Positions 2,223 to 13,219 of a DNA stretch of 64,000 nucleotides are shown here, piece by piece. Source of the DNA: an uncultured Paracoccaceae bacterium (lineage in GTDB: Bacteria; Pseudomonadota; Alphaproteobacteria; Rhodobacterales; Rhodobacteraceae); contig CANLSM010000008.1 in NCBI GenBank assembly GCA_947493745.1, positions 62,001 to 126,000 of the forward strand. The letters run 5' to 3'. A model generated the notes under the pieces. The model ran no database searches, was not told where the DNA came from, and saw only the letters and a program-made list of their open reading frames with translations. Each line of letters begins with the position of its first letter. Position 1 is the first letter of the stretch. The translations under genes were made by a program, and so were the position numbers.

Positions 2223-2660
2223 CTATGCCAGGTCTGCCTGCGACATGGCCTTCACGATCTCCGCCCGGCGGGTCTCGATGATCGCCAGCCTTTCGGCGAC
2301 ACGTTCCGGCGTGAAGAAATGGGCAATGTCCAGAATGTTGACGGTGCCGATCACCGCGCCGTCGCGAACCGGCACGTTCAGGGCCGAGCCGCATCCCAGC
2401 GCCTCGATCACCGCATGGTCGGGAAAATAGATCGCAAACTCCGCAACCGTGTTGGCCACGAACGGCTCTCCCCGATCGACGACCTGCGTGGTCCAGTCCC
2501 CCTGCCCCATCGGCTTGGTGCCGGAGACCGGGTACTCGACCGGATGCGAGGTATAGACCCGGCGCGCCAGACCGGCCTTGCGGTCCAGCACCGTCACGGT
2601 CATCAGCCGCCCCCCGACGCTCGTATGGAGGGTAGCATAGACCTCGTCGGGCGTGCTCAC
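2223..2660 (-). CDS. GAF domain protein at the end of the hps operon
   Basis: This small soluble protein (145 residues) is essentially a single GAF fold. The core has GEPFVANTVAEFAIYFPDHA followed by GCGSALNVPVRDGAVIGTVNILD, the usual central strands and last helix of GAF domains. I start it at the GTG at 2658-2660, which overlaps the stop of the upstream binding-protein gene as GTGA, a classic translational coupling. An upstream in-frame extension exists but lies inside the previous gene. GAF domains bind small molecules or act as sensors; here it probably senses or modifies something in the pathway. The function is not known. Confidence 0.75.
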   Translation of the reverse strand: MSTPDEVYATLHTSVGGRLMTVTVLDRKAGLARRVYTSHPVEYPVSGTKPMGQGDWTTQVVDRGEPFVANTVAEFAIYFPDHAVIEALGCGSALNVPVRDGAVIGTVNILDIAHFFTPERVAERLAIIETRRAEIVKAMSQADLA

Positions 2661-4249
2661 TCCTTCTCGACCAGCCGGTAGAAGACGAAGTCCGAGGTCG
2701 CGCCATTGACGAAGCCCCTGACCCGCTCGTTCATCGCCACCTGCTTGATCGCCTGGAACATGATCACGAAAGGCGCTTCGGCCTGCGTTTCCCTTTGCAA
2801 TTCCATATACATGTCCAGGCGTTTGTCGGCATCCCGCTCGGCAAGCGCTGCCATGGTCTTGGCGTTCATCTCGGCGGGCGGCATCCATGCATTTCGCCAT
2901 GTCGTGGTCGAGGCATACTTGTCGTCCGAGTTGTCGGCATTGAAGGCAAAGGCCTTGGCGTTGGAATGCGGATCCATGAAGTCCGGCCCCCAATAGAGCA
3001 GCATCGCCTCATGGGTTCGGGCGCGGTACTTCGTGATCACCTGCGCACCGGTTCCGGGGATGACCTCCAGATTGATCCCGCCCTCGGCGAAGGAGGCCTG
3101 CAGGGACTGCGCCATATCGACAAAGGGCGTGGCCGAGATCACGTCGAGCGTGACATTGATCGGCAGTTCAACACCGGCCTCCGTCAGAATCTGCTTCGCC
3201 TTCGCGGGATCGTAGGTGTAAGGCGTATCGGTCAGCGCGCCGGGGAAACCATCGGGCCAGAAGGCCTGGTGCACCTTCATCTGACCGGCCAGGTAGGAAC
3301 CCGCCATCCCCTCGTAGTCAACCAGGTAGCGCGCGGCCTTCCAGACCGCGGGATCGGTCAGAGCATCGACCTTTTGGTTGAACGAGACCCAGTGAACGGC
3401 GGCCTGCGGATAGGTCTGGACCGTGACCCCGGCCTCATCCGCCAACCCCGTCACCTGATCGGGCGTCAGGTTCTTGGCCATGTCGATATCGCCTGCCACG
3501 AGTTGCAGCCGCTGGGTTGCGGCCTCGGGGATGTGCTGGATCAGAACGCTGCGCATTGCGGGTGCGCCCTGATAGTAGTCAGGATTTGCGTCCAGCGCCA
3601 AAAGCTCCGCCGGGCGATAGCTGCGCAGTTTGAACGGGCCCGTCCCGGCGGAATTCCGGTTCATCCAGGCATGGCCGAGATCGCCATCGACCTCATTGGC
3701 CATCACGGTTTGCATATCGACAACGGAGGCCGGGCGCGCGGCAAGCACGTTGAGCACGAAGGACGGTGCGAAATCGCCCTCATAGCGGGCCGTGACGGTG
3801 TTCCCATCGACCGTGACCATTTCAGCGATGTTCTCTGGCGTCCAGCCAAGCTGGGTCAGCATGAAGGACGGCGCCTTGTCGAGCGTCACGACACGGGTCC
3901 AGGAACCCAGCACATCCTCACCGCGCAGAGAGTTGCCGGAATGGAATGTCACGCCGTCGCGCAGGGTGAAGGTAACTGTCTTCGCAGCAGGATCGACCGT
4001 CCATTCGGTGGCGAGCGCGGGGGCGAGAACGGTCGTGTCCGTCGCGTCGTACCGGACCAGAGTATCATAGGTGTTGGCGACATACTCACCGGAGGAGAAC
4101 TCATAGGCCGAGGCCGGATCAATCGTGACAATATCGTCAATGTTCTGCGCCACGACCAGCACATCCGCAGGTGTCTCGGCCAAAACCGGCGCGGCCGCCA
4201 GATATGCTGCAAGAACTCCCGAAGCCGCAATCGACATGATACGGTTCAT
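2657..4249 (-). CDS. ABC transporter substrate-binding protein, family 5 (dipeptide/oligopeptide type)
   Basis: The 530-residue protein starts at the ATG at 4249, which has GGGAG a few bases upstream, and carries a Sec signal peptide ending APVLA-ETP. The mature part shows family 5 binding-protein features: TWTVDPAAKTVTFTLRDGVTFHSG-type sequence near residue 90 and the closing segment AEAPFVIMFQAIKQVAMNE. These periplasmic proteins feed an inner-membrane ABC importer. No permease or ATPase gene is next to it, which is odd for the family. Because it lies in the hps operon after the dehydrogenases, it probably binds DHPS or a related compound, but this is inference from position. Confidence 0.85.
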   Translation of the reverse strand: MNRIMSIAASGVLAAYLAAAPVLAETPADVLVVAQNIDDIVTIDPASAYEFSSGEYVANTYDTLVRYDATDTTVLAPALATEWTVDPAAKTVTFTLRDGVTFHSGNSLRGEDVLGSWTRVVTLDKAPSFMLTQLGWTPENIAEMVTVDGNTVTARYEGDFAPSFVLNVLAARPASVVDMQTVMANEVDGDLGHAWMNRNSAGTGPFKLRSYRPAELLALDANPDYYQGAPAMRSVLIQHIPEAATQRLQLVAGDIDMAKNLTPDQVTGLADEAGVTVQTYPQAAVHWVSFNQKVDALTDPAVWKAARYLVDYEGMAGSYLAGQMKVHQAFWPDGFPGALTDTPYTYDPAKAKQILTEAGVELPINVTLDVISATPFVDMAQSLQASFAEGGINLEVIPGTGAQVITKYRARTHEAMLLYWGPDFMDPHSNAKAFAFNADNSDDKYASTTTWRNAWMPPAEMNAKTMAALAERDADKRLDMYMELQRETQAEAPFVIMFQAIKQVAMNERVRGFVNGATSDFVFYRLVEKE

Positions 4250-4344
4250 CACCACACTCCCTCTCTTGTTGATACAAGGGATGATGGCTTGATCGGGAAG
4301 GAATGCCAACCGCGTTCAACCATGCTGATTGCGGCAGGTGTGCT

Positions 4345-5334
4345 CTACGGCTCCAGGATGATCTTGGGCGCGGCAACCTCGCCCGCGCGAATGGCGCGGA
4401 ATGCAGCCGCGCCGTCTGACAGCGCGCGGGTCTCGATCCAGTCGAGCGGACCGAGACTGCCGTCATAGATCGCCTCGGCGGTCTCGCGAAAATCCTCGGT
4501 CGTATAGGTGTAGGTGCCGATAAAGGTGATTTCCTGAAGGGTCATACGCCGGATATCGAGCCCGCCCGTCCCCTCGCCCAGACCAATATGAGCGATCACG
4601 CCGCCGGGGCGCGCCTGAGCGGACGCAATCTCCCGTGTTGCGGCAAAGCCGACACCATCCACCACCAGATCAAACTGCCCGTCGGTTTCGAGTGCGTCCG
4701 GTGAGACGACAGTCTGTCCGCATCCGTCCTGCAGATACGCCCGGCGGATAGGGTTGGATTCGACGATTGTCACATTGCGCACGCCCTGCGCCTTGAGGCT
4801 GAGCGCTGCACCAAGTCCGATCGCGCCGCCACCGATGGCCAATGCCTTGTCGGCACCGCCCGTGTCTCCGAGCGCCTCCAGCCCCAGACGGACCGCATGC
4901 CAGCTGCAGGCAATCGGCTCTGCAAGAGCCGCCTTCCGGGGTGATATGCCGTCGGGCACCTCGACAAGGTTGGCCGCCGGCATGCTGAGCCATTCGGCAA
5001 ATCCACCCTCACGCGGCGGCATCGAGATGATCTGGCGTTCCGGGCAGATGTTCTCACGTCCCGACATGCAGGCCGGACAGGTGCCACATGGCACCAGCGG
5101 GTTCACCGTGACGCGGGTTCCGTCGCGCGGCCCGCCTGTGATGATGCCTGCAATCTCGTGACCCAGGATCAGCGGCGGCGGACGGCGGGCATCATGGCCG
5201 AGATAGGCATGCATGTCCGATCCGCATATCCCGACAGCCTCGATCCGGATCAACTCGGTTCCTTCGCCCGCAACCGGATCGGCGACATCATGATAGGAGA
5301 GGCTCTCGGGCCCCATGTAAACAAGTGCCTTCAT
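4345..5334 (-). CDS. hpsP: Zinc-dependent alcohol dehydrogenase (MDR), likely sulfopropanediol 2-dehydrogenase HpsP
   Basis: This 329-residue medium-chain dehydrogenase has the catalytic zinc signature (GICGSDMHAYLG, then GHEIAG) and the structural-zinc cysteines in VPCGTCPACMSGRENICPE. The Rossmann turn is IGGGAIGLGAAL. It overlaps the upstream SDR gene by four bases (ATGA). In DHPS-degrading bacteria, HpsP and HpsO oxidise C2 of 2,3-dihydroxypropane-1-sulfonate, interconverting enantiomers through the ketone so that HpsN can act. The assignment to HpsP rests on family and on its place beside hpsN and hpsO; another polyol substrate is possible. Confidence 0.75.
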   Translation of the reverse strand: MKALVYMGPESLSYHDVADPVAGEGTELIRIEAVGICGSDMHAYLGHDARRPPPLILGHEIAGIITGGPRDGTRVTVNPLVPCGTCPACMSGRENICPERQIISMPPREGGFAEWLSMPAANLVEVPDGISPRKAALAEPIACSWHAVRLGLEALGDTGGADKALAIGGGAIGLGAALSLKAQGVRNVTIVESNPIRRAYLQDGCGQTVVSPDALETDGQFDLVVDGVGFAATREIASAQARPGGVIAHIGLGEGTGGLDIRRMTLQEITFIGTYTYTTEDFRETAEAIYDGSLGPLDWIETRALSDGAAAFRAIRAGEVAAPKIILEP

Positions 5335-6083
5335 TTCGCCGTGAACCCTCCATCAACCATCAGAACCTGCCCCGTGACGTAGGCCGACGCATCGCTGCAC
5401 AAAAAGAGCAAGGGGCCCGCGATATCCTCCGGCTCGCCATTGCGCCCGATGCAGGTCTGCGCCGCGTTGCGGGCCGCACGCTCAGGATCCGCGAAAACGG
5501 CCTCGGTCAACTCGGTTCGGAAAAACCCCGGACCTATCGCGTTGGCGGTGATGCCAAAGGGCGACCAGGCCTCGGCCATGGCGCGGGTAAGCTGACCGAT
5601 CCCGCCCTTGGAGGCGCCATAGGCCAGTCCGCCGGGAAAGGCGCGGTGGGTCTGGAGCGAGGCAAAATTCACGATCCGCCCCCAGCCCCTTTCCTTCATC
5701 GCAGGCACCAGAGCCTGGCTGAAAAAGAAAGGCGTTGCGAGGTTGAGATTGAGCGTGACGTCCCAGCCCTCGGGCGTGACATCATCGGCGGTCTGGCGCG
5801 TGTTGATCCCGGCTGCATGAACGAGGATATCGGGTGAACCGAAGGGCTCCGCAACACGTTTGGCCAGCGCGTTGAGGCCATCCCGGTCCGCGAGATCATG
5901 GGAGATGGCCGCGGTCTCGCCGTCCGCCTCCGCGCGCCATTCATCAAGCGCCTCCGCCCGCCGGGCCACGCCGACAACCCGTGCACCTGATGCTGCCAGA
6001 ACCGACGCCGCATGGCGCCCGAGGCCGGAGCTGGCCCCGGTTACACAGGCAACACGGCCCCTGATGTCAAAGAGCGTGCGCAC
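5331..6083 (-). CDS. hpsO: Short-chain dehydrogenase/reductase, likely HpsO
   Basis: A typical 250-residue classical SDR: the NAD(P) motif VTGASSGLGRHA near residue 14, the NAG-equivalent HAAGIN, catalytic Ser in NFASLQT and the YGASKGG active-site Tyr/Lys, ending VDGGFTAK. The start is a GTG nine bases after the hpsN stop, and the end overlaps the next dehydrogenase by four bases, so the three are clearly co-transcribed. In the known pathway HpsO is the SDR-type DHPS 2-dehydrogenase. The role here is inferred from the neighbours. Confidence 0.75.
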   Translation of the reverse strand: MRTLFDIRGRVACVTGASSGLGRHAASVLAASGARVVGVARRAEALDEWRAEADGETAAISHDLADRDGLNALAKRVAEPFGSPDILVHAAGINTRQTADDVTPEGWDVTLNLNLATPFFFSQALVPAMKERGWGRIVNFASLQTHRAFPGGLAYGASKGGIGQLTRAMAEAWSPFGITANAIGPGFFRTELTEAVFADPERAARNAAQTCIGRNGEPEDIAGPLLFLCSDASAYVTGQVLMVDGGFTAK

Positions 6084-6092
6084 GCGCGGCGA

Positions 6093-7400
6093 TCAGTCGG
6101 CGGCCTTGAGATCGAAGCTCTCATCGGGAAAATACTTGGCCAGCCGGATGTCGGCCGTGCGCGCATGGCCTTCCATGCCCTCAAGGCGCGAGATACGCGC
6201 CGTCGCCTCGGCAATCGGCCTTGCCCCTTCGCGTGTGGCCCGTTGCCAGGTCACGATCTTCATGTATTTGTGCACCGACAGACCGCCCGTATAGGACGCG
6301 GCACCCGAGGTTGGCAGGACATGGTTGGTGCCCGACGCCTTGTCGCCGAAGGCCACCGTTGTCTCCTCGCCCAGAAAGAGCGACCCGTAGCAGCTGAGCC
6401 GTTCCAGCCACCAGTCGAGATCGGCGGCCTGCACCGTCAGATGCTCGGGCGCGTACATGTCGGATGTTGCAGCCATTTCCTCCCGATCGGCACAGAGGAT
6501 CACTTCGGCATAGTCGCGCCACGCGGCGGCCGCGTTGGTGCGGTTGACCTCCGGCAGAGCATCGATCAGGGGCGGCACAAGCTCCATCACTTTCTCCGCC
6601 AGAGCCTTGTCATCAGTGACGAGCCAGACGGGCGAGTTGTAGCCATGCTCGGCCTGCCCGACCAGATCGGCCGCCACGATGGCCGCATCCGCTGTCTTGT
6701 CGGCCAGTATCAGACTGTCAGTCGGACCGGCAATCATGTCGATGCCGACCCGGCCAAACAGTATCCGTTTGGCCTCCGCGACGAACTGGTTTCCCGGACC
6801 GACGAGGATGTTGGCTTTCGGCAGCCCGAAAAGGCCGAATGTCATTGCGGCCACACCCTGCACGCCGCCCATGGCCAGAATGGTGTCCGCCCCCGAGATA
6901 TGCGCCGCATAGACAATCGCCGGGGCGATGCCGACCTCGGGCCGTGGTGGCGAGCAGGCGACAATATGACTGCATCCGGCCACCTTGGCCGTGGTCACGG
7001 TCATGATCGCGCTGGCAATATGTGCATAACGACCACCGGGCACATAACATCCCGCCGCGTTGACGGGGATGCTCTTCTGTCCGGCAATCAGGCCCGGCAC
7101 GACCTCGATCTCGATGTCCTGCAGGGTCTCTTTCTGGGCTTCGGCGAACCGGCGAACATTGTCCTGAGCAAAGCGGATATCGGCCTTCAACCTTTCGGGC
7201 ACCTGCGCAATGGCCGCCTCGATCTCGTCCGCGGTCAGAATGACATTGCCTTCGTACCGATCGAACCTGGAGGCATAATCGAGAGCGGCCTGATCACCTC
7301 CGGCTTCGATGTCGTCAAGAATGCCTCTGACGGTCTGCTGCACATCGGATGCGTCCGACGCCGCAGTCAGTGTGGCCTTTTTCAGATACGTAATCGGCAT
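6093..7400 (-). CDS. hpsN: Sulfopropanediol 3-dehydrogenase HpsN (histidinol dehydrogenase family)
   Basis: The 435-residue protein belongs to the HisD family. It keeps the zinc and catalytic region motifs QAEHGYNSP, GTNHVLPTSGAA and YAPEHL. From memory it is very close to the characterised HpsN of Ruegeria pomeroyi over its whole length, starting with the YLKKA opening and the long stretch around CYVPGGRY. HpsN oxidises (R)-DHPS in two NAD-dependent steps to sulfolactate. It heads an operon with two other dehydrogenases and lacks any his gene neighbours, which argues against a role in histidine synthesis. The start ATG has AAGGA upstream. Confidence 0.88.
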   Translation of the reverse strand: MPITYLKKATLTAASDASDVQQTVRGILDDIEAGGDQAALDYASRFDRYEGNVILTADEIEAAIAQVPERLKADIRFAQDNVRRFAEAQKETLQDIEIEVVPGLIAGQKSIPVNAAGCYVPGGRYAHIASAIMTVTTAKVAGCSHIVACSPPRPEVGIAPAIVYAAHISGADTILAMGGVQGVAAMTFGLFGLPKANILVGPGNQFVAEAKRILFGRVGIDMIAGPTDSLILADKTADAAIVAADLVGQAEHGYNSPVWLVTDDKALAEKVMELVPPLIDALPEVNRTNAAAAWRDYAEVILCADREEMAATSDMYAPEHLTVQAADLDWWLERLSCYGSLFLGEETTVAFGDKASGTNHVLPTSGAASYTGGLSVHKYMKIVTWQRATREGARPIAEATARISRLEGMEGHARTADIRLAKYFPDESFDLKAAD

Positions 7401-7464
7401 CGGGGAGATCCTTGTCTGTGAATTTCGGGCAGAGAGACCGGTGAGATCACGGGTTCGGCGGCAA

Positions 7465-7477
7465 TCGATTCAATCGA
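7465..7477. promoter_or_regulatory. Perfect 13-base palindrome between hpsN and the lacI-type gene
   Basis: TCGATT-C-AATCGA is a perfect inverted repeat with a one-base centre. It abuts the LacI-type operator to its right by one base. It could be a second half of a composite operator or an unrelated site; I cannot decide. Confidence 0.4.
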
Positions 7478-7478
7478 A

Positions 7479-7494
7479 ATGTAAGCCATTACAT
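7479..7494. promoter_or_regulatory. LacI/GalR-type operator
   Basis: ATGTAA-GCCA-TTACAT is a perfect inverted repeat. Its TGTAA....TTACA core has the same 14-base spacing as the common LacI/GalR-family operator. It lies between the divergent hpsN and lacI-family genes, about 80 bases upstream of hpsN and about 100 upstream of the regulator, so it is well placed to control both. Confidence 0.75.
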
Positions 7495-7595
7495 ATCAAG
7501 CTGCAACAGCTTTCGTGGCAGTCCGCGACGTGGCAACCACCCGAAGTTGAATGAAAATGTGGATGAGAGCCGATTTGCACGCTAGAACTGCGGGC

Positions 7596-8639
7596 ATGAA
7601 ACAGGAGAGTTCAAGACGATCACGTTCGGCCCCGACCATCGAGGATGTGGCCCGGCTGGCGAATGTCTCGACTGCGACTGTGTCGCGCTGCCTGAACCTT
7701 CCCCACCGGGTCGTCGAAAGCACCCGCAAACGGGTGATCGCGGCCGTGAACGAGTTGGGGTATTCGCCCAATTTCGGTGCGCGCGCCATGGCGGCCAACC
7801 GGACCAACACCATTGCCGCGATCATTCCGACGATGGAAAACGCGGTCTTTGCCCGTGGTATTCAGGCCTTTCAGGAGGAGTTGCATCTGCACGGCGTGAC
7901 CCTGCTCGTTGCCTGCTCTTCCTACTGCGCTAAACTGGAGGGGGAGCAGATCCGCACCCTGACCGCGCGCGGGGCGGATGCGTTCCTGCTGATCGGGCAT
8001 CACCGCGAGGACTGGATCTACCGCTTTCTCGAAAAGCAGAGCATCCCGGCCCTGTCTTGCTGGACCTATGATGCCGAAAACCCCAACCTTTCCATAGGCT
8101 TCGACAACGAAGCTGCGATGCGAGACCTGACCCGGGCCGTATTGGAGACGGGGCATCGCAGAATCGGTTACATCTCGGCCCACATGGCGACCAACGATCG
8201 CGCGCGCGCGCGCTATCTCGGCATTCGGGCCGCGCTGGAAGAAGGCGGTCTGGACCCTGACAAGTTGAGCCTGATCGAGACGCCATATGGCATTGATGAG
8301 GGGGCCGAGGCCTTCAATCAGCTGATGGAAGGCGGCGAGAAGCCGAGCGTCGTGATGTGCGGCAATGATGTTCTGGCCGTGGGCGCGTTGCGCGGCGCGC
8401 GGGAACGGGGCATGAGGGTGCCCCAGGATATCTCGATCACCGGTTTTGACGATATCGAGCTTGCGCGCGTGACCGAGCCGAACCTGACAACGGTGCATGT
8501 CCCGCATCGCGAGATGGGGCGCGAGGCCGCGCGTCTTCTGGTCGGGATGGTCAATGGCGAACAGCCGGCCGACAGCGTGCGTCTTGAGACCACCTTGTGC
8601 CTGCGCGGCTCCCTCGCGAAACCCTCGGATAGCAGGTGA
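7596..8639 (+). CDS. LacI-family transcriptional regulator of the hps operon
   Basis: The protein has an N-terminal LacI helix-turn-helix (DVARLANVSTATVSRCLN) followed by the hinge helix region NELGYSPNFGARAMA and a periplasmic-binding-like ligand domain that ends with PDISITGFDD-type sequence and the TTVHVP segment. I chose the ATG at 7596 (347 residues) because LacI proteins place the helix-turn-helix close to the N terminus; an ATG at 7551 would add 15 residues and has no better ribosome site. It is divergent from hpsN with a LacI-type operator between. The likely role is repression of the hps genes until substrate is present. Confidence 0.85.
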   Translation: MKQESSRRSRSAPTIEDVARLANVSTATVSRCLNLPHRVVESTRKRVIAAVNELGYSPNFGARAMAANRTNTIAAIIPTMENAVFARGIQAFQEELHLHGVTLLVACSSYCAKLEGEQIRTLTARGADAFLLIGHHREDWIYRFLEKQSIPALSCWTYDAENPNLSIGFDNEAAMRDLTRAVLETGHRRIGYISAHMATNDRARARYLGIRAALEEGGLDPDKLSLIETPYGIDEGAEAFNQLMEGGEKPSVVMCGNDVLAVGALRGARERGMRVPQDISITGFDDIELARVTEPNLTTVHVPHREMGREAARLLVGMVNGEQPADSVRLETTLCLRGSLAKPSDSR

Positions 8640-9107: not shown

Positions 9108-12100
9108 ATGAATAAAACCGACACGGACCTGCACATGGTCCCCGGGGGGGAAGCGCGACTTGGACAGGTGGATACGTCCTATTTTCTGGTCGGTGTCGGG
9201 GCGTCGGCCGGAGGTCTGGAGGCGATCAAGACATTCCTCGCGCCGATCCCGGGTGACTGCCCGCACAGTTTTGTCTTCATCCAGCATATCTCGCCCGACT
9301 ACAAATCCCTGATGGGGGACCTGCTGCGCCGGGAGACATCGCTGAAGATTGCCGAGGTCGAGGACAACATGCCCATCGATCCGGGCCATGTGTACATCAT
9401 CCCGCCCAAGGCGAATGTCATCATTCAGGGCACCAATCAGGAAGAGGGCGAGGACGATCAGGTCTCGCCGCCGCTGGCCGATCATGGACTGCGCTTCACG
9501 CTGGTCGATCAGCCGCCGCGCCCGCAGCTGAACCTTCCGATTGATCTCTTCTTCCAGTCGCTGGCCGAGGCGGTCGGCGACCGTGCGGTGGCCGTGATCC
9601 TGTCGGGCACCGGATCGGACGGCAGTCGCGGCCTGCGCGCGGTCAAGGATGCCGATGGCATGGTGATGGTGCAGGATCCCGGAACAGCGGCCTTCGACGG
9701 CATGCCCCGGGCCGCGATCACCACGAAGCTGGTCGACATGGTCCTGCAGCCCGACCTGATGGGCAAGGAGCTCTATCGGTATTTCGACCTCCACCGCTCG
9801 GGCCTTGTGCAGGTCGAGCGGCTGTTTCAGGATTCCGAAGATGCGCTTGAGACCATCCTCGATGCGGTCGGTCAGGAAGCCCAGATCGACTTCCAGCGCT
9901 ACAAGCGCCCTACCCTGCAACGGCGGATCGCACGGCGGATGTCGATCAAGGGATGCACATCGCTGGAGAGTTACCTCCAGATCATCGAGGATGATCCGAA
10001 CGAGGTTGCCATTCTGCACCGCGAGTTTCTGGTCGGTGTGACGCATTTCTTCCGGGACTACCCGGCCTGGGAAATCCTGCATGACACGGTATTGCCGTCA
10101 ATTGTCGAGAACCACTCCGGTCCGGGGCCGATCAAGGTCTGGTCTGTGGGATGCTCGACCGGCGAGGAGGCCTATTCGATCGCGATGATGCTGGACACCT
10201 ATCTCACCGAGATCGGGTCCAGCAAGGAATTCAAGGTCTTCGCGACCGATGTGAATGAGGCCGCCATCGAGACCGCGCGCGAGGGGATCTACCCCGAGAA
10301 CGCGATGGAGGACATTCCCGAGAAATACGCCAGCACCTACATGTCATACCGGCGTGGCGGTGTGGTCATTAAGGAGAGCCTGCGGCGCAGCATCATCTTC
10401 TCGACCCACAATGCAGGCGATGATGCGCCCTTCATCCATACCGACCTGCTGATCTGCCGGAATATGCTGATCTATCTGACCCCCGCCCTGCAGGCGCAGC
10501 TTCTGACCTCGTTCTCCTACGCGCTCAATCACGGCGGGTATCTGTTCCTGGGTGCCAGCGAGAGCATCGAACGGGGGTATTCCCGTTTCTCCGCTGTCGA
10601 TGTGAGATGGCGCATTTTCCGCAACTCGGCGCGGGCACAGATCGCGGATGCGGGCTCGCACTCCTTTTCAAACTTCTTCGCCCCTGCCTACCGCCCCCTG
10701 CCCCCGATGCGGGCACGAACGGCGGATACCGGCGGGGACGAGTCCGTGCGGACGGTTGTCGGTGCGATGATGGGGGCGATGGACTCCTGCGCGCTTGTTG
10801 TCACTCCGAATATGCAGATCCTTGAGACGTTTGGCGACTATCAGCGCTTCATCCGTCTGCCCCGGGACGGATTTTCCGCCAAGCTTCTCGATCTGGTTCC
10901 CGACCGGTTAATCAGTGCGCTGTCGATTGTTTTCCGCAAGGCGGACAAGGAGGGCACCGCGCGCTACGGACCGGTCAAGCTGATGTCGGAGGACCGGCTC
11001 ATTCCGGTTGATCTGACCTGTGCGAAGGTTGAGGGGCCGAACACGGTGCCGAGCTTTGTGGTCGTGCTGTCCTCGGGCCCCGAGACGGTGCTGATCGAGG
11101 GCGACAAAGATGACCATTCGGTCCGGACCCATGAGCTTTCCGAACAGGCCCGTTATGTGGCCGAGCTTGAAGCGGAGCTGGCCGCAGCCCGTGAAACGCT
11201 GGAGGCGACGGTCGAGGATCTGGGCGTTTCCAATGAGGAGCTTCAGACCTCGAACGAAGAACTCATGTCGGCCAACGAGGAGCTTCAGTCGACCAATGAG
11301 GAAATGCAGAGCGTCAACGAAGAGCTTCACACGATCAATGCCGAACACACCGAGAAGATTGCCGAGCTTGAGGCTGCCTATGCCGATATCGACAACCTTC
11401 TGAACAGTACCGAGATCGCGACCGTGTTCCTTGATCCCGACCTGCGCATTCGCCGGTTCAGCGAAACCATCAAGACCCATTTCAATCTGGATGCGCGCGA
11501 TATCGGGCGACCGCTGGTGCATTTCTCGTCGCATCTGGATGGAGACACCAATGCGCGGCTGTTGTCGGCTGCCCAGCTTGCGCTGGAGAAGGGCGAACCC
11601 AGCGCCTACGAGGTGCAGTCCAATGATGGCAGTTGGTATTATGCCCGTATCCGGCCCTTTGCAGGCATCGAGGGCGGCACCGAAGGCGTCGTGCTGACCT
11701 TCACGGATATCACCCAGCCCAAGATTATCCGCCGGGAGCTGGAAATCCAGCGCGGCATGACCGAAGTACTCGAAGCCCTTCTGGAAGGCGAGACCGCGGG
11801 CTACTGGGACTGGAACATGCAAGAGAATTCCAAGTATCTCAGCCCGCAGTTCAAGAAGATGTTCGGCTATGAGCCCGACGAGATGGAGAACACGCCTGAG
11901 GCCTGGCAGGCGCTCATCTTTGAGGAGGATCTAGCCCGGCATCAGGCGGCGCTGGATGAACACATCGCGTCCGAGGGCGAGACGCCCTATGATCTGGAAG
12001 TGCGCTTCCACCACAAGAACGGCTCGACCGTCTGGGTGAACAGCCGCGGCCGGGTGATCGAATGGGACAATGCGGGCAAGCCGCTCAGGATGATCGGCTG

Positions 12101-12827
12101 CCACCTCGACATCACCCAGCAGAAAGAGCGCGAGTTCGCGTCCTCCCGGCGCGCCGAGGAAATTCGTCGGTTCGCCTATATTGCCGCGCATGACCTGCGC
12201 GAGCCGATGACGACGATCCAGACCATGATCGAGCTTCTGACCAACGAGATCGGTGACGATCTGCCGCCCAAGCAGACCAAGATCATGAATTTCGTGACCA
12301 CCGCCAGCACACGCATGAGCAATCAGATAGACGGGGTGCTGGATTATGCCAAGCTTCTGGATGGCGACAAGGTCTTCGCCGATCTGGACATGAACAAGCT
12401 GGTCAAGACATGCCTTGAGGACCTCGCCGAGCCAATCTCGGAGGCAAAGGCGAAGATCAAGTGCGACAAGCTGAAAGTCTGTAAGGGATCCGAGCCGCTG
12501 ATCGCACGGGTCATCCAGAACCTCGTCTCCAACGCGGTCAAATTCCGCGACAAGAAGCGGCCGCTGAAAATCTCGATCACCAGCAAGGACAATGGTCGCG
12601 GCCAGATCGAGTACTCGGTATCGGACAACGGCATCGGCATCCCCGAGAAACACCGGGATCGGATATTCGAGCTCTTCTACAGGCTTCACACGGAGAAGGA
12701 TTATTCCGGCGGAGGGCTTGGCTTGGCGATGTGCGCGCGTATACTGGAAATCCACTCCAGCGCAATCTGGGTCGAAGATGGCGAAGATGGGGGGAGTTGC
12801 TTTAAATTCATCCTTGAGGCCGCCTGA
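9108..12827 (+). CDS. CheB-CheR-PAS-histidine kinase fusion protein
   Basis: A 1239-residue multidomain protein. Residues about 24-205 are a CheB methylesterase with active-site Ser33 (GASAGG), His60 (FIQHIS) and the Asp in LSGTGSDGS. Residues about 215-490 are a CheR methyltransferase with the SAM loop SVGCSTGEEAYS and CRNMLIYL. A long Glu/Asn-rich coiled coil spans about 680-765, then two PAS domains (about 765-1010). A HisKA domain follows with the phospho-His near 1028 (AAHDLREP), then an HATPase domain with SDNGIGIPEKH and GGGLGLAM. It is cytoplasmic, with no membrane segment. Such fusions signal through the downstream response regulator rather than a classical chemotaxis array; no che genes or receptors are nearby. 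Confidence 0.93.
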   Translation: MNKTDTDLHMVPGGEARLGQVDTSYFLVGVGASAGGLEAIKTFLAPIPGDCPHSFVFIQHISPDYKSLMGDLLRRETSLKIAEVEDNMPIDPGHVYIIPPKANVIIQGTNQEEGEDDQVSPPLADHGLRFTLVDQPPRPQLNLPIDLFFQSLAEAVGDRAVAVILSGTGSDGSRGLRAVKDADGMVMVQDPGTAAFDGMPRAAITTKLVDMVLQPDLMGKELYRYFDLHRSGLVQVERLFQDSEDALETILDAVGQEAQIDFQRYKRPTLQRRIARRMSIKGCTSLESYLQIIEDDPNEVAILHREFLVGVTHFFRDYPAWEILHDTVLPSIVENHSGPGPIKVWSVGCSTGEEAYSIAMMLDTYLTEIGSSKEFKVFATDVNEAAIETAREGIYPENAMEDIPEKYASTYMSYRRGGVVIKESLRRSIIFSTHNAGDDAPFIHTDLLICRNMLIYLTPALQAQLLTSFSYALNHGGYLFLGASESIERGYSRFSAVDVRWRIFRNSARAQIADAGSHSFSNFFAPAYRPLPPMRARTADTGGDESVRTVVGAMMGAMDSCALVVTPNMQILETFGDYQRFIRLPRDGFSAKLLDLVPDRLISALSIVFRKADKEGTARYGPVKLMSEDRLIPVDLTCAKVEGPNTVPSFVVVLSSGPETVLIEGDKDDHSVRTHELSEQARYVAELEAELAAARETLEATVEDLGVSNEELQTSNEELMSANEELQSTNEEMQSVNEELHTINAEHTEKIAELEAAYADIDNLLNSTEIATVFLDPDLRIRRFSETIKTHFNLDARDIGRPLVHFSSHLDGDTNARLLSAAQLALEKGEPSAYEVQSNDGSWYYARIRPFAGIEGGTEGVVLTFTDITQPKIIRRELEIQRGMTEVLEALLEGETAGYWDWNMQENSKYLSPQFKKMFGYEPDEMENTPEAWQALIFEEDLARHQAALDEHIASEGETPYDLEVRFHHKNGSTVWVNSRGRVIEWDNAGKPLRMIGCHLDITQQKEREFASSRRAEEIRRFAYIAAHDLREPMTTIQTMIELLTNEIGDDLPPKQTKIMNFVTTASTRMSNQIDGVLDYAKLLDGDKVFADLDMNKLVKTCLEDLAEPISEAKAKIKCDKLKVCKGSEPLIARVIQNLVSNAVKFRDKKRPLKISITSKDNGRGQIEYSVSDNGIGIPEKHRDRIFELFYRLHTEKDYSGGGLGLAMCARILEIHSSAIWVEDGEDGGSCFKFILEAA

Positions 12828-12829
12828 AC

Positions 12830-13219
12830 ATGACTGCCAATCCCGCATTTGAACATGTGGTCCTCATCGATGACAATGAAGCGCACAGTTTTCTGCATCG
12901 GTGTCTGCTGGAGGATTCCGGCCAGGCCCGCGAGATCACCGAATTCTCCTATGCGGAAAAAGCGCTGCATTTCCTGAAATCGCCCAATCGCTCGCCTGTC
13001 GATCTGGTGCTGATCGACATCAACATGCCTGTGATGGACGGGTTCGAGTTCGCCGACAATTTCGCGACACTCTATCCCGAACTCGTCAGCGCAACCCGGC
13101 TGGTGATGGTCTCGGGCTCGCTCAATCCCGATGACCGGGACCGCGCCGAAGCCCATCCGGCAATCCACTCCTATCTGGTCAAGCCGGTGGATCTCGACAG
13201 CCTTCTGGCGCTCGCCTGA
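12830..13219 (+). CDS. Single-domain response regulator
   Basis: This 129-residue receiver domain starts two bases after the kinase stop, so the two form an operon. The acidic pair is in LIDDN (residues 14-15), the phospho-acceptor is Asp63 in LIDINMPVMDG and the conserved lysine is Lys118 in YLVKP. There is no output domain. The sequence style is that of the Rcp1-type receivers that partner phytochrome-like HisKA kinases, which fits the HDLREP histidine box of its neighbour. Confidence 0.92.
   Translation: MTANPAFEHVVLIDDNEAHSFLHRCLLEDSGQAREITEFSYAEKALHFLKSPNRSPVDLVLIDINMPVMDGFEFADNFATLYPELVSATRLVMVSGSLNPDDRDRAEAHPAIHSYLVKPVDLDSLLALA

Follow-up and report, generated by a model that had tools for sequence, protein, structure and literature searches.

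The stretch of DNA analysed here – a window of 64,000 nucleotides on contig C8 of genome G000, a 99.97% complete assembly from an uncultured Paracoccaceae bacterium – carries, between positions 2223 and 8639, genes predicted to degrade 2,3-dihydroxypropane-1-sulfonate (DHPS), a sulfur compound produced by algae. Downstream of them lie genes for a periplasmic substrate-binding protein (SBP) and a small GAF protein. It is highly probable that two unrelated units meet at this place: an ordinary hpsN-hpsO-hpsP operon of the type common in Rhodobacteraceae, and a relocated accessory pair, the tail of a dipeptide (dpp) operon, whose peptide-binding SBP would probably feed the transporter DppBCDF in trans. 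This reading is built on the observed gene content, homology, displacement of the pair, an intact transporter core elsewhere in the genome and the lack of a link to hps genes in the sampled relatives.

The modest new point is the repeated detachment of the pair: five sampled genomes have it outside the dipeptide-transporter operon, each at another place, through at least two events. With it, a tempting inference is corrected, since a gene for a binding protein that adjoins a catabolic operon does not have to serve that operon. An earlier note on this DNA had proposed the pair as a different uptake or sensing route for DHPS, standing in for the tripartite ATP-independent periplasmic (TRAP) transporter hpsKLM. 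That proposal does not hold up, given the origin of the pair in dpp operons, its neighbours in other genomes and the intact core on another contig, C4.

The SBP–GAF pair and its dipeptide-type operon

All six genes that the earlier note had placed in this stretch are present where it put them. The SBP gene (2657–4249, minus strand) encodes a family 5, peptide-type protein (Pfam SBP_bac_5, E 4.3e-71) with homologues in dpp operons, where it would be the second SBP of a DppBCDF-type transporter of the ATP-binding cassette (ABC) class. The single-domain GAF gene (2223–2660, minus strand), recognised by its AlphaFold fold, travels with it. As had been noted, the two genes overlap by GTGA at 2657–2660, and neither a permease nor an ATPase adjoins the pair.

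The usual surroundings of the pair emerge from a scan of GTDB genomes by peptide patterns, which gave 365 candidate SBP loci; the best 80, with SBPs 66–84% identical to that of the window, were analysed with up to 10 kb on each side, some of them on short contigs. At least three of DppBCDF lie within 8 kb in 72 of these loci, an M19 or M24 peptidase in 44, and a GAF gene shares the locus with the SBP in 74. No hps gene was found near the SBP in any of the 80, nor in 10 genomes of the family read with short flanks. Twelve loci (L066–L072, L075, L077, L078, L080 and L081), with SBPs 81–84% identical to that of the window, share one order – M19 dipeptidase, first SBP, DppB, DppC, DppD, DppF, SBP, GAF – and in all except L081, where it was not seen, a divergent LysR gene accompanies them. 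On this gene order, the SBP and GAF genes form the end of an ABC operon of the dipeptide type. The overlap between SBP stop and GAF start is common to 15 of the 16 closest relatives and, by the same comparison, is ancestral.

The head of such an operon persists in the window genome. Contig C4 (L146) carries LysR, M19, first SBP, DppB, DppC, DppD and DppF (the core checked by Pfam), the joined DppBCDF being 86–89% identical to those of the 12 relatives, and the operon stops at DppF with no SBP–GAF pair behind it. A presumed cognate core of the binding protein, which had been called an orphan, is thus present in the genome, though not next to it; the search for a permease set elsewhere in the genome, which the earlier note had suggested as a check, finds one here.

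In another species of the genus (G001), the dpp operon (L147) likewise lacks the pair and the nearest SBP is only 44% identical, so the pair is dispensable in the genus. This would suit a neutral or decaying relic, or else a junction produced by assembly error. We regard either as improbable: both genes are open and keep their conserved residues, complete genes flank the junction within a contig of 152 kb, and detached pairs occur in four other assemblies.

Those four belong to Litoreibacter arenae, L. meonggei and two Aliiroseovarius (L073, L074, L076 and L079). Their pairs, located around 9,500–12,000 in the respective loci, have differing neighbours (judged by eye), none of them near hps, and each genome holds elsewhere a DppB 88–89% identical, in a dpp operon ending at DppF. 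Upstream of the SBP, all four retain a 3′ remnant of dppF (tblastn E 7.8e-17, 5.1e-14, 5.0e-11 and 3.9e-4), and in the tree the four SBPs group as a single clade (support 0.992), which together make one detachment with later moves likely in these genomes. Of the best 80 loci, the remaining four are short contigs (L083, L097, L098 and L130). The SBP alignment used for residue conservation has 91 rows, with repeats retained, and the GAF set examined along with the trees has 78 rows including 3 repeats (L006, L007 and L210).

At the window locus, a tRNA-Gln gene (2114–2187) lies next to the GAF gene. No repeat of its 3′ end was found in the window beyond the tRNA itself, and a search for repeats that might mark insertion of the pair gave short ones only. 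On its other side, the tRNA adjoins a gene for an MttB-family methyltransferase (516–2066), a homologue of which (40%) stands directly upstream of hpsN in another sampled locus (L159).

The hps operon, its control and the import of DHPS

The three dehydrogenase genes are all on the minus strand: hpsN (6093–7400), of the HisD family; hpsO (5331–6083), encoding a short-chain dehydrogenase/reductase; and hpsP (4345–5334), encoding a zinc enzyme of the medium-chain dehydrogenase/reductase family. Their best matches among solved structures are three crystallised DHPS dehydrogenases: 8wwe (RpHpsN; residues 1–407, E 9.2e-230) for HpsN, 8wwf (RpHpsO; E 5.3e-135) for HpsO and 8wwd (DsHpsP; E 4e-136, with a runner-up of only 4e-29) for HpsP. 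The accessions 8WWE, 8WWF and 8WWD are assigned to these enzymes in PMC11131964.

The active-site residues checked against those published in PMC11131964 and PMC11382572 are retained, with one difference in HpsN. HpsN keeps E319, H320, D353, K354 and H360 (RpHpsN numbering) together with H412; Ser226 of CpHpsN is replaced by Thr (T227), as it also is in the aligned 8wwe chain. Although its Pfam family is Histidinol_dh (E 6.2e-135), a role as histidinol dehydrogenase is ruled out by the structure matches and by GRYAH at 123–127, which matches the G-R-Y-A/S-H motif that tells HpsN from histidinol dehydrogenase (PMC11382572). Two further HisD-family paralogues in the genome (47% and 37% identical) do not have the motif, reading GGKFPM and GGLASYP instead. 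In HpsO, S142, Q144, Y155 and K159 correspond to RpHpsO S145, Q147, Y158 and K162, that is, to the Ser-Tyr-Lys triad and to Gln147, which sets specificity for R-DHPS (PMC11131964), while HpsP retains the reported His59, Glu60 and Glu139 (H59, E60 and E139; PMC11131964).

Because the best solved matches and the published active-site residues agree, HpsN – an R-DHPS (sulfopropanediol) 3-dehydrogenase by homology – and HpsO very probably oxidise R-DHPS, and HpsP S-DHPS; the assignment of these genes to DHPS degradation, made earlier from the sequence, is borne out. With candidate hpsO, hpsP and hpsN reported in 609 genomes (PMC11131964), the enzyme set is a common one. Downstream steps may be encoded on contig C14, where a gene for a SuyB-like protein – 83% identical to the SuyB-like protein of another hps operon (L149) and 68% to its counterpart in the Cupriavidus pinatubonensis cluster – is adjoined by a SuyA-like gene; the pair would complete the route to pyruvate and sulfite.

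The packing described in the earlier note is tight where these genes are concerned, with a 9-base gap between hpsN and hpsO and a 4-base overlap between hpsO and hpsP, but it does not extend to the SBP gene, which follows hpsP on the same strand after 95 bases. Divergent to hpsN is a gene for a LacI-type regulator (7551–8639, plus strand; Pfam LacI, E 2.2e-19), a candidate hpsR. Between the two lies a palindrome, ATGTAAGCCATTACAT (7479–7494, assigned to neither strand), a probable LacI operator. It is the sole site of its form in the window, where 26 of 100 shuffles also give one match at 2 mismatches. Genome-wide, the pattern TGTAANNNNTTACA occurs at 0 mismatches once, between lacI and hpsN; its backward control gives two sites, so there is no enrichment of the pattern itself. 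Among relatives, whose hps loci carry regulators 47–68% identical to the window LacI, 28 LacI upstream regions hold TGTAAGCGCTTACA exactly in 19 cases and as a variant of 1–2 bases in 2, with none in 7; the window site differs from it at two central bases. Beyond the regulator, a fused CheB-CheR-PAS-histidine kinase protein and then a single-domain response regulator are encoded at 9108–13219.

These arrangements bear on the idea of regulatory capture, according to which a peptide-binding SBP is now induced together with the hps genes and the cell steps up its scavenging of peptides in response to algal DHPS. The idea is compatible with the reading preferred here, and the shared strand, the 95-base distance to hpsP and the lack of a terminator-like site between them would allow it. 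As no second genome copy of the operator, sought for the sake of a co-regulated importer, was found at 0 mismatches, LacI control of the SBP could come only by read-through; no site of operator form stands ahead of the SBP gene, the 95 bases leave room for a promoter, and the detached pairs of the four other genomes sit at sites unrelated to hps. On balance, we regard capture as possible but doubtful.

How DHPS enters the cell is a separate matter. The absence of hpsKLM beside hpsNOP, as pointed out earlier, is real and holds genome-wide: the best hpsM match in the window genome is 32% identical (short partial matches reach 36%), compared with 80–89% in the hps loci of relatives. For a fused TRAP protein encoded next to hpsN in L167, the best match reaches 34%; MFS-type HpsU gave no match, and ComE no close one, in searches run with no positive control. 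A TRAP transporter, which the described hps clusters had been said to carry, is missing from part of those sampled here. The hps sample comprised 38 chosen regions from at least 46 genomes, 37 with HpsN of at least 70% identity and 30 of these also with HpsO or HpsP of at least 55% (these cut-offs, and those for the SBP below, were set by the analyst). In these 30 operons, taken with wider flanks, hpsM stands beside hpsN in 19 and does not in 11. Where TRAP genes are present, they sit between the regulator and hpsN; an SBP downstream of hpsP is not in their place, and its interpretation as a replacement at the TRAP position is ruled out.

Loss of hpsKLM is, moreover, common and not made good by this SBP. 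Of 13 hps genomes with no local hpsM, 12 have no close hpsM elsewhere either (at E up to 1e-100), G123 being the exception, and none of those 12 has an SBP of at least 63% identity. Both search controls, G001 and the genome that supplied the query (G055), were matched; two of those 12 genomes, G115 and G146, reach a completeness of only 81 and 83%. An SBP of the window kind lies within 8 kb of none of the 30 hps operons. Across 149 genomes of the family, HpsN of at least 68% occurs in 46 and the SBP of at least 63% in 11, both together only in the window genome, where about 3.4 genomes with both would be expected if they were independent.

Taken with the 80 SBP loci that have no hps genes nearby, this leaves it most improbable that the SBP is a receptor for DHPS or another C3 sulfonate that replaces hpsKLM and passes DHPS to an unlinked permease, the GAF protein acting as sensor – even if it is the sole transport-related gene adjoining hps in a genome that is nearly complete and poor in close importer matches. 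In a related version, to which we give equally little credence, a lineage devoid of hpsKLM would have recruited the peptide-type SBP to deliver a DHPS-related or amino-sulfonate ligand to DppBCDF in trans, the GAF protein serving as a sensor inside the cell.

Two side observations concern the variety of hps loci. The two sampled species of the genus differ in their hps operon (L148 versus window positions 4345–8639): one has TRAP genes and no hpsP that could be found, the other hpsP and no TRAP genes, and their HpsN proteins, 82% identical, are no closer to each other than to those of other genera. In a few other loci, a different TRAP set is encoded immediately upstream of hpsN (L167 and L172) or some kilobases away (L152 and L173), with a DctQ-DctM fusion identified by Pfam in L167 and proteins of similar lengths in L172 and L173. 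Its neighbours in these four loci, judged by eye, are GMC-oxidoreductase-like, TerC-like or IclR-like genes, and it is a candidate alternative DHPS importer there.

The SBP ligand, the GAF protein and the weighing of the evidence

One of the best matches of the SBP, whose N-terminus is signal-peptide-like by eye, among solved structures is Escherichia coli DppA. There, D436 binds the dipeptide through its amino group (PMC12136057). The aligned residue of the SBP, D423, is invariant in all 91 rows of the alignment, and DHPS has no amine, which argues against a receptor for DHPS. So does the retention of 195 of the 198 strongly conserved columns of the SBP family, the departures being P107S, I130M and I396V.

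The GAF protein is harder to place. Its AlphaFold model (mean predicted local distance difference test score 96.3) has a GAF fold, yet by Pfam it is marginal, at 21.5 bits against a cut-off of 22.4; no PDB chain matches its sequence at E up to 1, and none of the 43 family members matched NCBIfam. Its fold matches include sensor GAF domains, phytochromes, phosphodiesterases and a type II free methionine-R-sulfoxide reductase, all at nearly equal Z scores; the match to that last enzyme (4mmn, Z 12.7) is tied with many GAF domains, and neither this tie nor the missing sequence match speaks decisively against such an enzymatic function. C90, invariant in 43 of 43 sequences (alignment A1), is the sole invariant Cys of the family. 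A literature search turned up no mention of dipeptide operons that include a GAF gene, and it is because of its gene neighbours that we take the protein to be part of the peptide system.

Several observations pull against the picture of a peptide-system pair that merely came to rest beside hps. The SBP and GAF genes could be read through from the hps operon, as the 95 bases between them and hpsP contain nothing like a terminator, and although a promoter-like site can be placed at 4309–4281, the region is not richer in such sites than shuffled sequence. The window copy has no dppF remnant in the 700 bases upstream of the SBP (tblastn best E 3.2), for which reason it is counted as a second case of detachment. 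In the trees, the SBP of the window is basal in its close group (support 0.944) and its Dpp core falls inside the group (0.833); these positions are compatible with movement of the pair inside the lineage as well as with its transfer from outside. At the lower HpsN identity of 59–63%, three more genomes (G007, G025 and G086) have both genes, on different contigs. As for the ligand, DppA R383, which contacts the peptide carboxylate, has no Arg at the aligned place in the SBP, where the alignment is gapped; with no clear counterpart, something other than an ordinary dipeptide may be bound. Three departures from the 198 family columns put the SBP at rank 85 of 91, more than most, and its 13 departures from the 352 columns of the close group are the most among 17 SBPs. 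These fit its basal branch and tell neither for nor against a new specificity. Finally, the lack of a close copy of three types of DHPS transporter is a gap that the SBP could in principle fill.

Weighing these points, we still favour a relocated dpp tail beside an ordinary hps operon, in a scheme whose repression, catalysis, ligand and partnership in trans are inferred. The LacI-type repressor, acting at the palindrome between its gene and hpsN, would control the three dehydrogenases. To judge from their close homologues, HpsNOP would convert R- and S-DHPS to sulfolactaldehyde and sulfolactate, and the latter would probably be cleaved by the SuyAB pair encoded on another contig. Independently of this, the likeliest role of the moved SBP is to capture a peptide or peptide-like amine in the periplasm and to hand it over to the core on C4, comprising the M19 dipeptidase, the first SBP and DppBCDF. 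The GAF protein would be a small accessory of that peptide system.

Comparison with known systems

The closest described counterpart of the degradation genes is the Ruegeria pomeroyi cluster hpsR-hpsKLM-hpsNOP-hpsQ-slcD, SPO0590–SPO0598 (PMC4334477), in which hpsKLM was identified as the DHPS importer by mutant growth and drawdown (PMC10130141). It shares with the window a LacI-type regulator, hpsN, hpsO and hpsP in identical order, and two of its enzymes, RpHpsN and RpHpsO, supply the best solved matches for HpsN and HpsO of the window. Unlike in that cluster, no hpsKLM separates the regulator gene from hpsN in the window, and hpsP is followed not by hpsQ or slcD but by the displaced SBP–GAF pair.

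In its lack of TRAP genes, the window resembles the Cupriavidus pinatubonensis cluster, hpsRNOUP-suyAB (PMC11382572), compared here from plasmid p2 of strain HN-2, with which it also shares LacI, HpsN (58%), HpsO (52%) and HpsP (43%). That cluster includes a gene of the major facilitator superfamily (MFS; hpsU by position) and suyAB, whereas in the window genome the suyAB-like genes are on another contig and the HpsU search, as noted, gave no match.

For the displaced pair, the nearest parallel is Pseudomonas aeruginosa, whose DppBCDF works with five SBPs, DppA1–A5, of which DppA5 is encoded away from the operon (PMC4206461). The SBP of the window belongs to another subfamily, is accompanied by a travelling GAF protein and has a ligand predicted from sequence. 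Both systems combine a family 5 SBP, a dipeptidase gene near the DppBCDF core and one SBP encoded off that core, and it is on this precedent that a partnership in trans between the moved SBP and DppBCDF is proposed.

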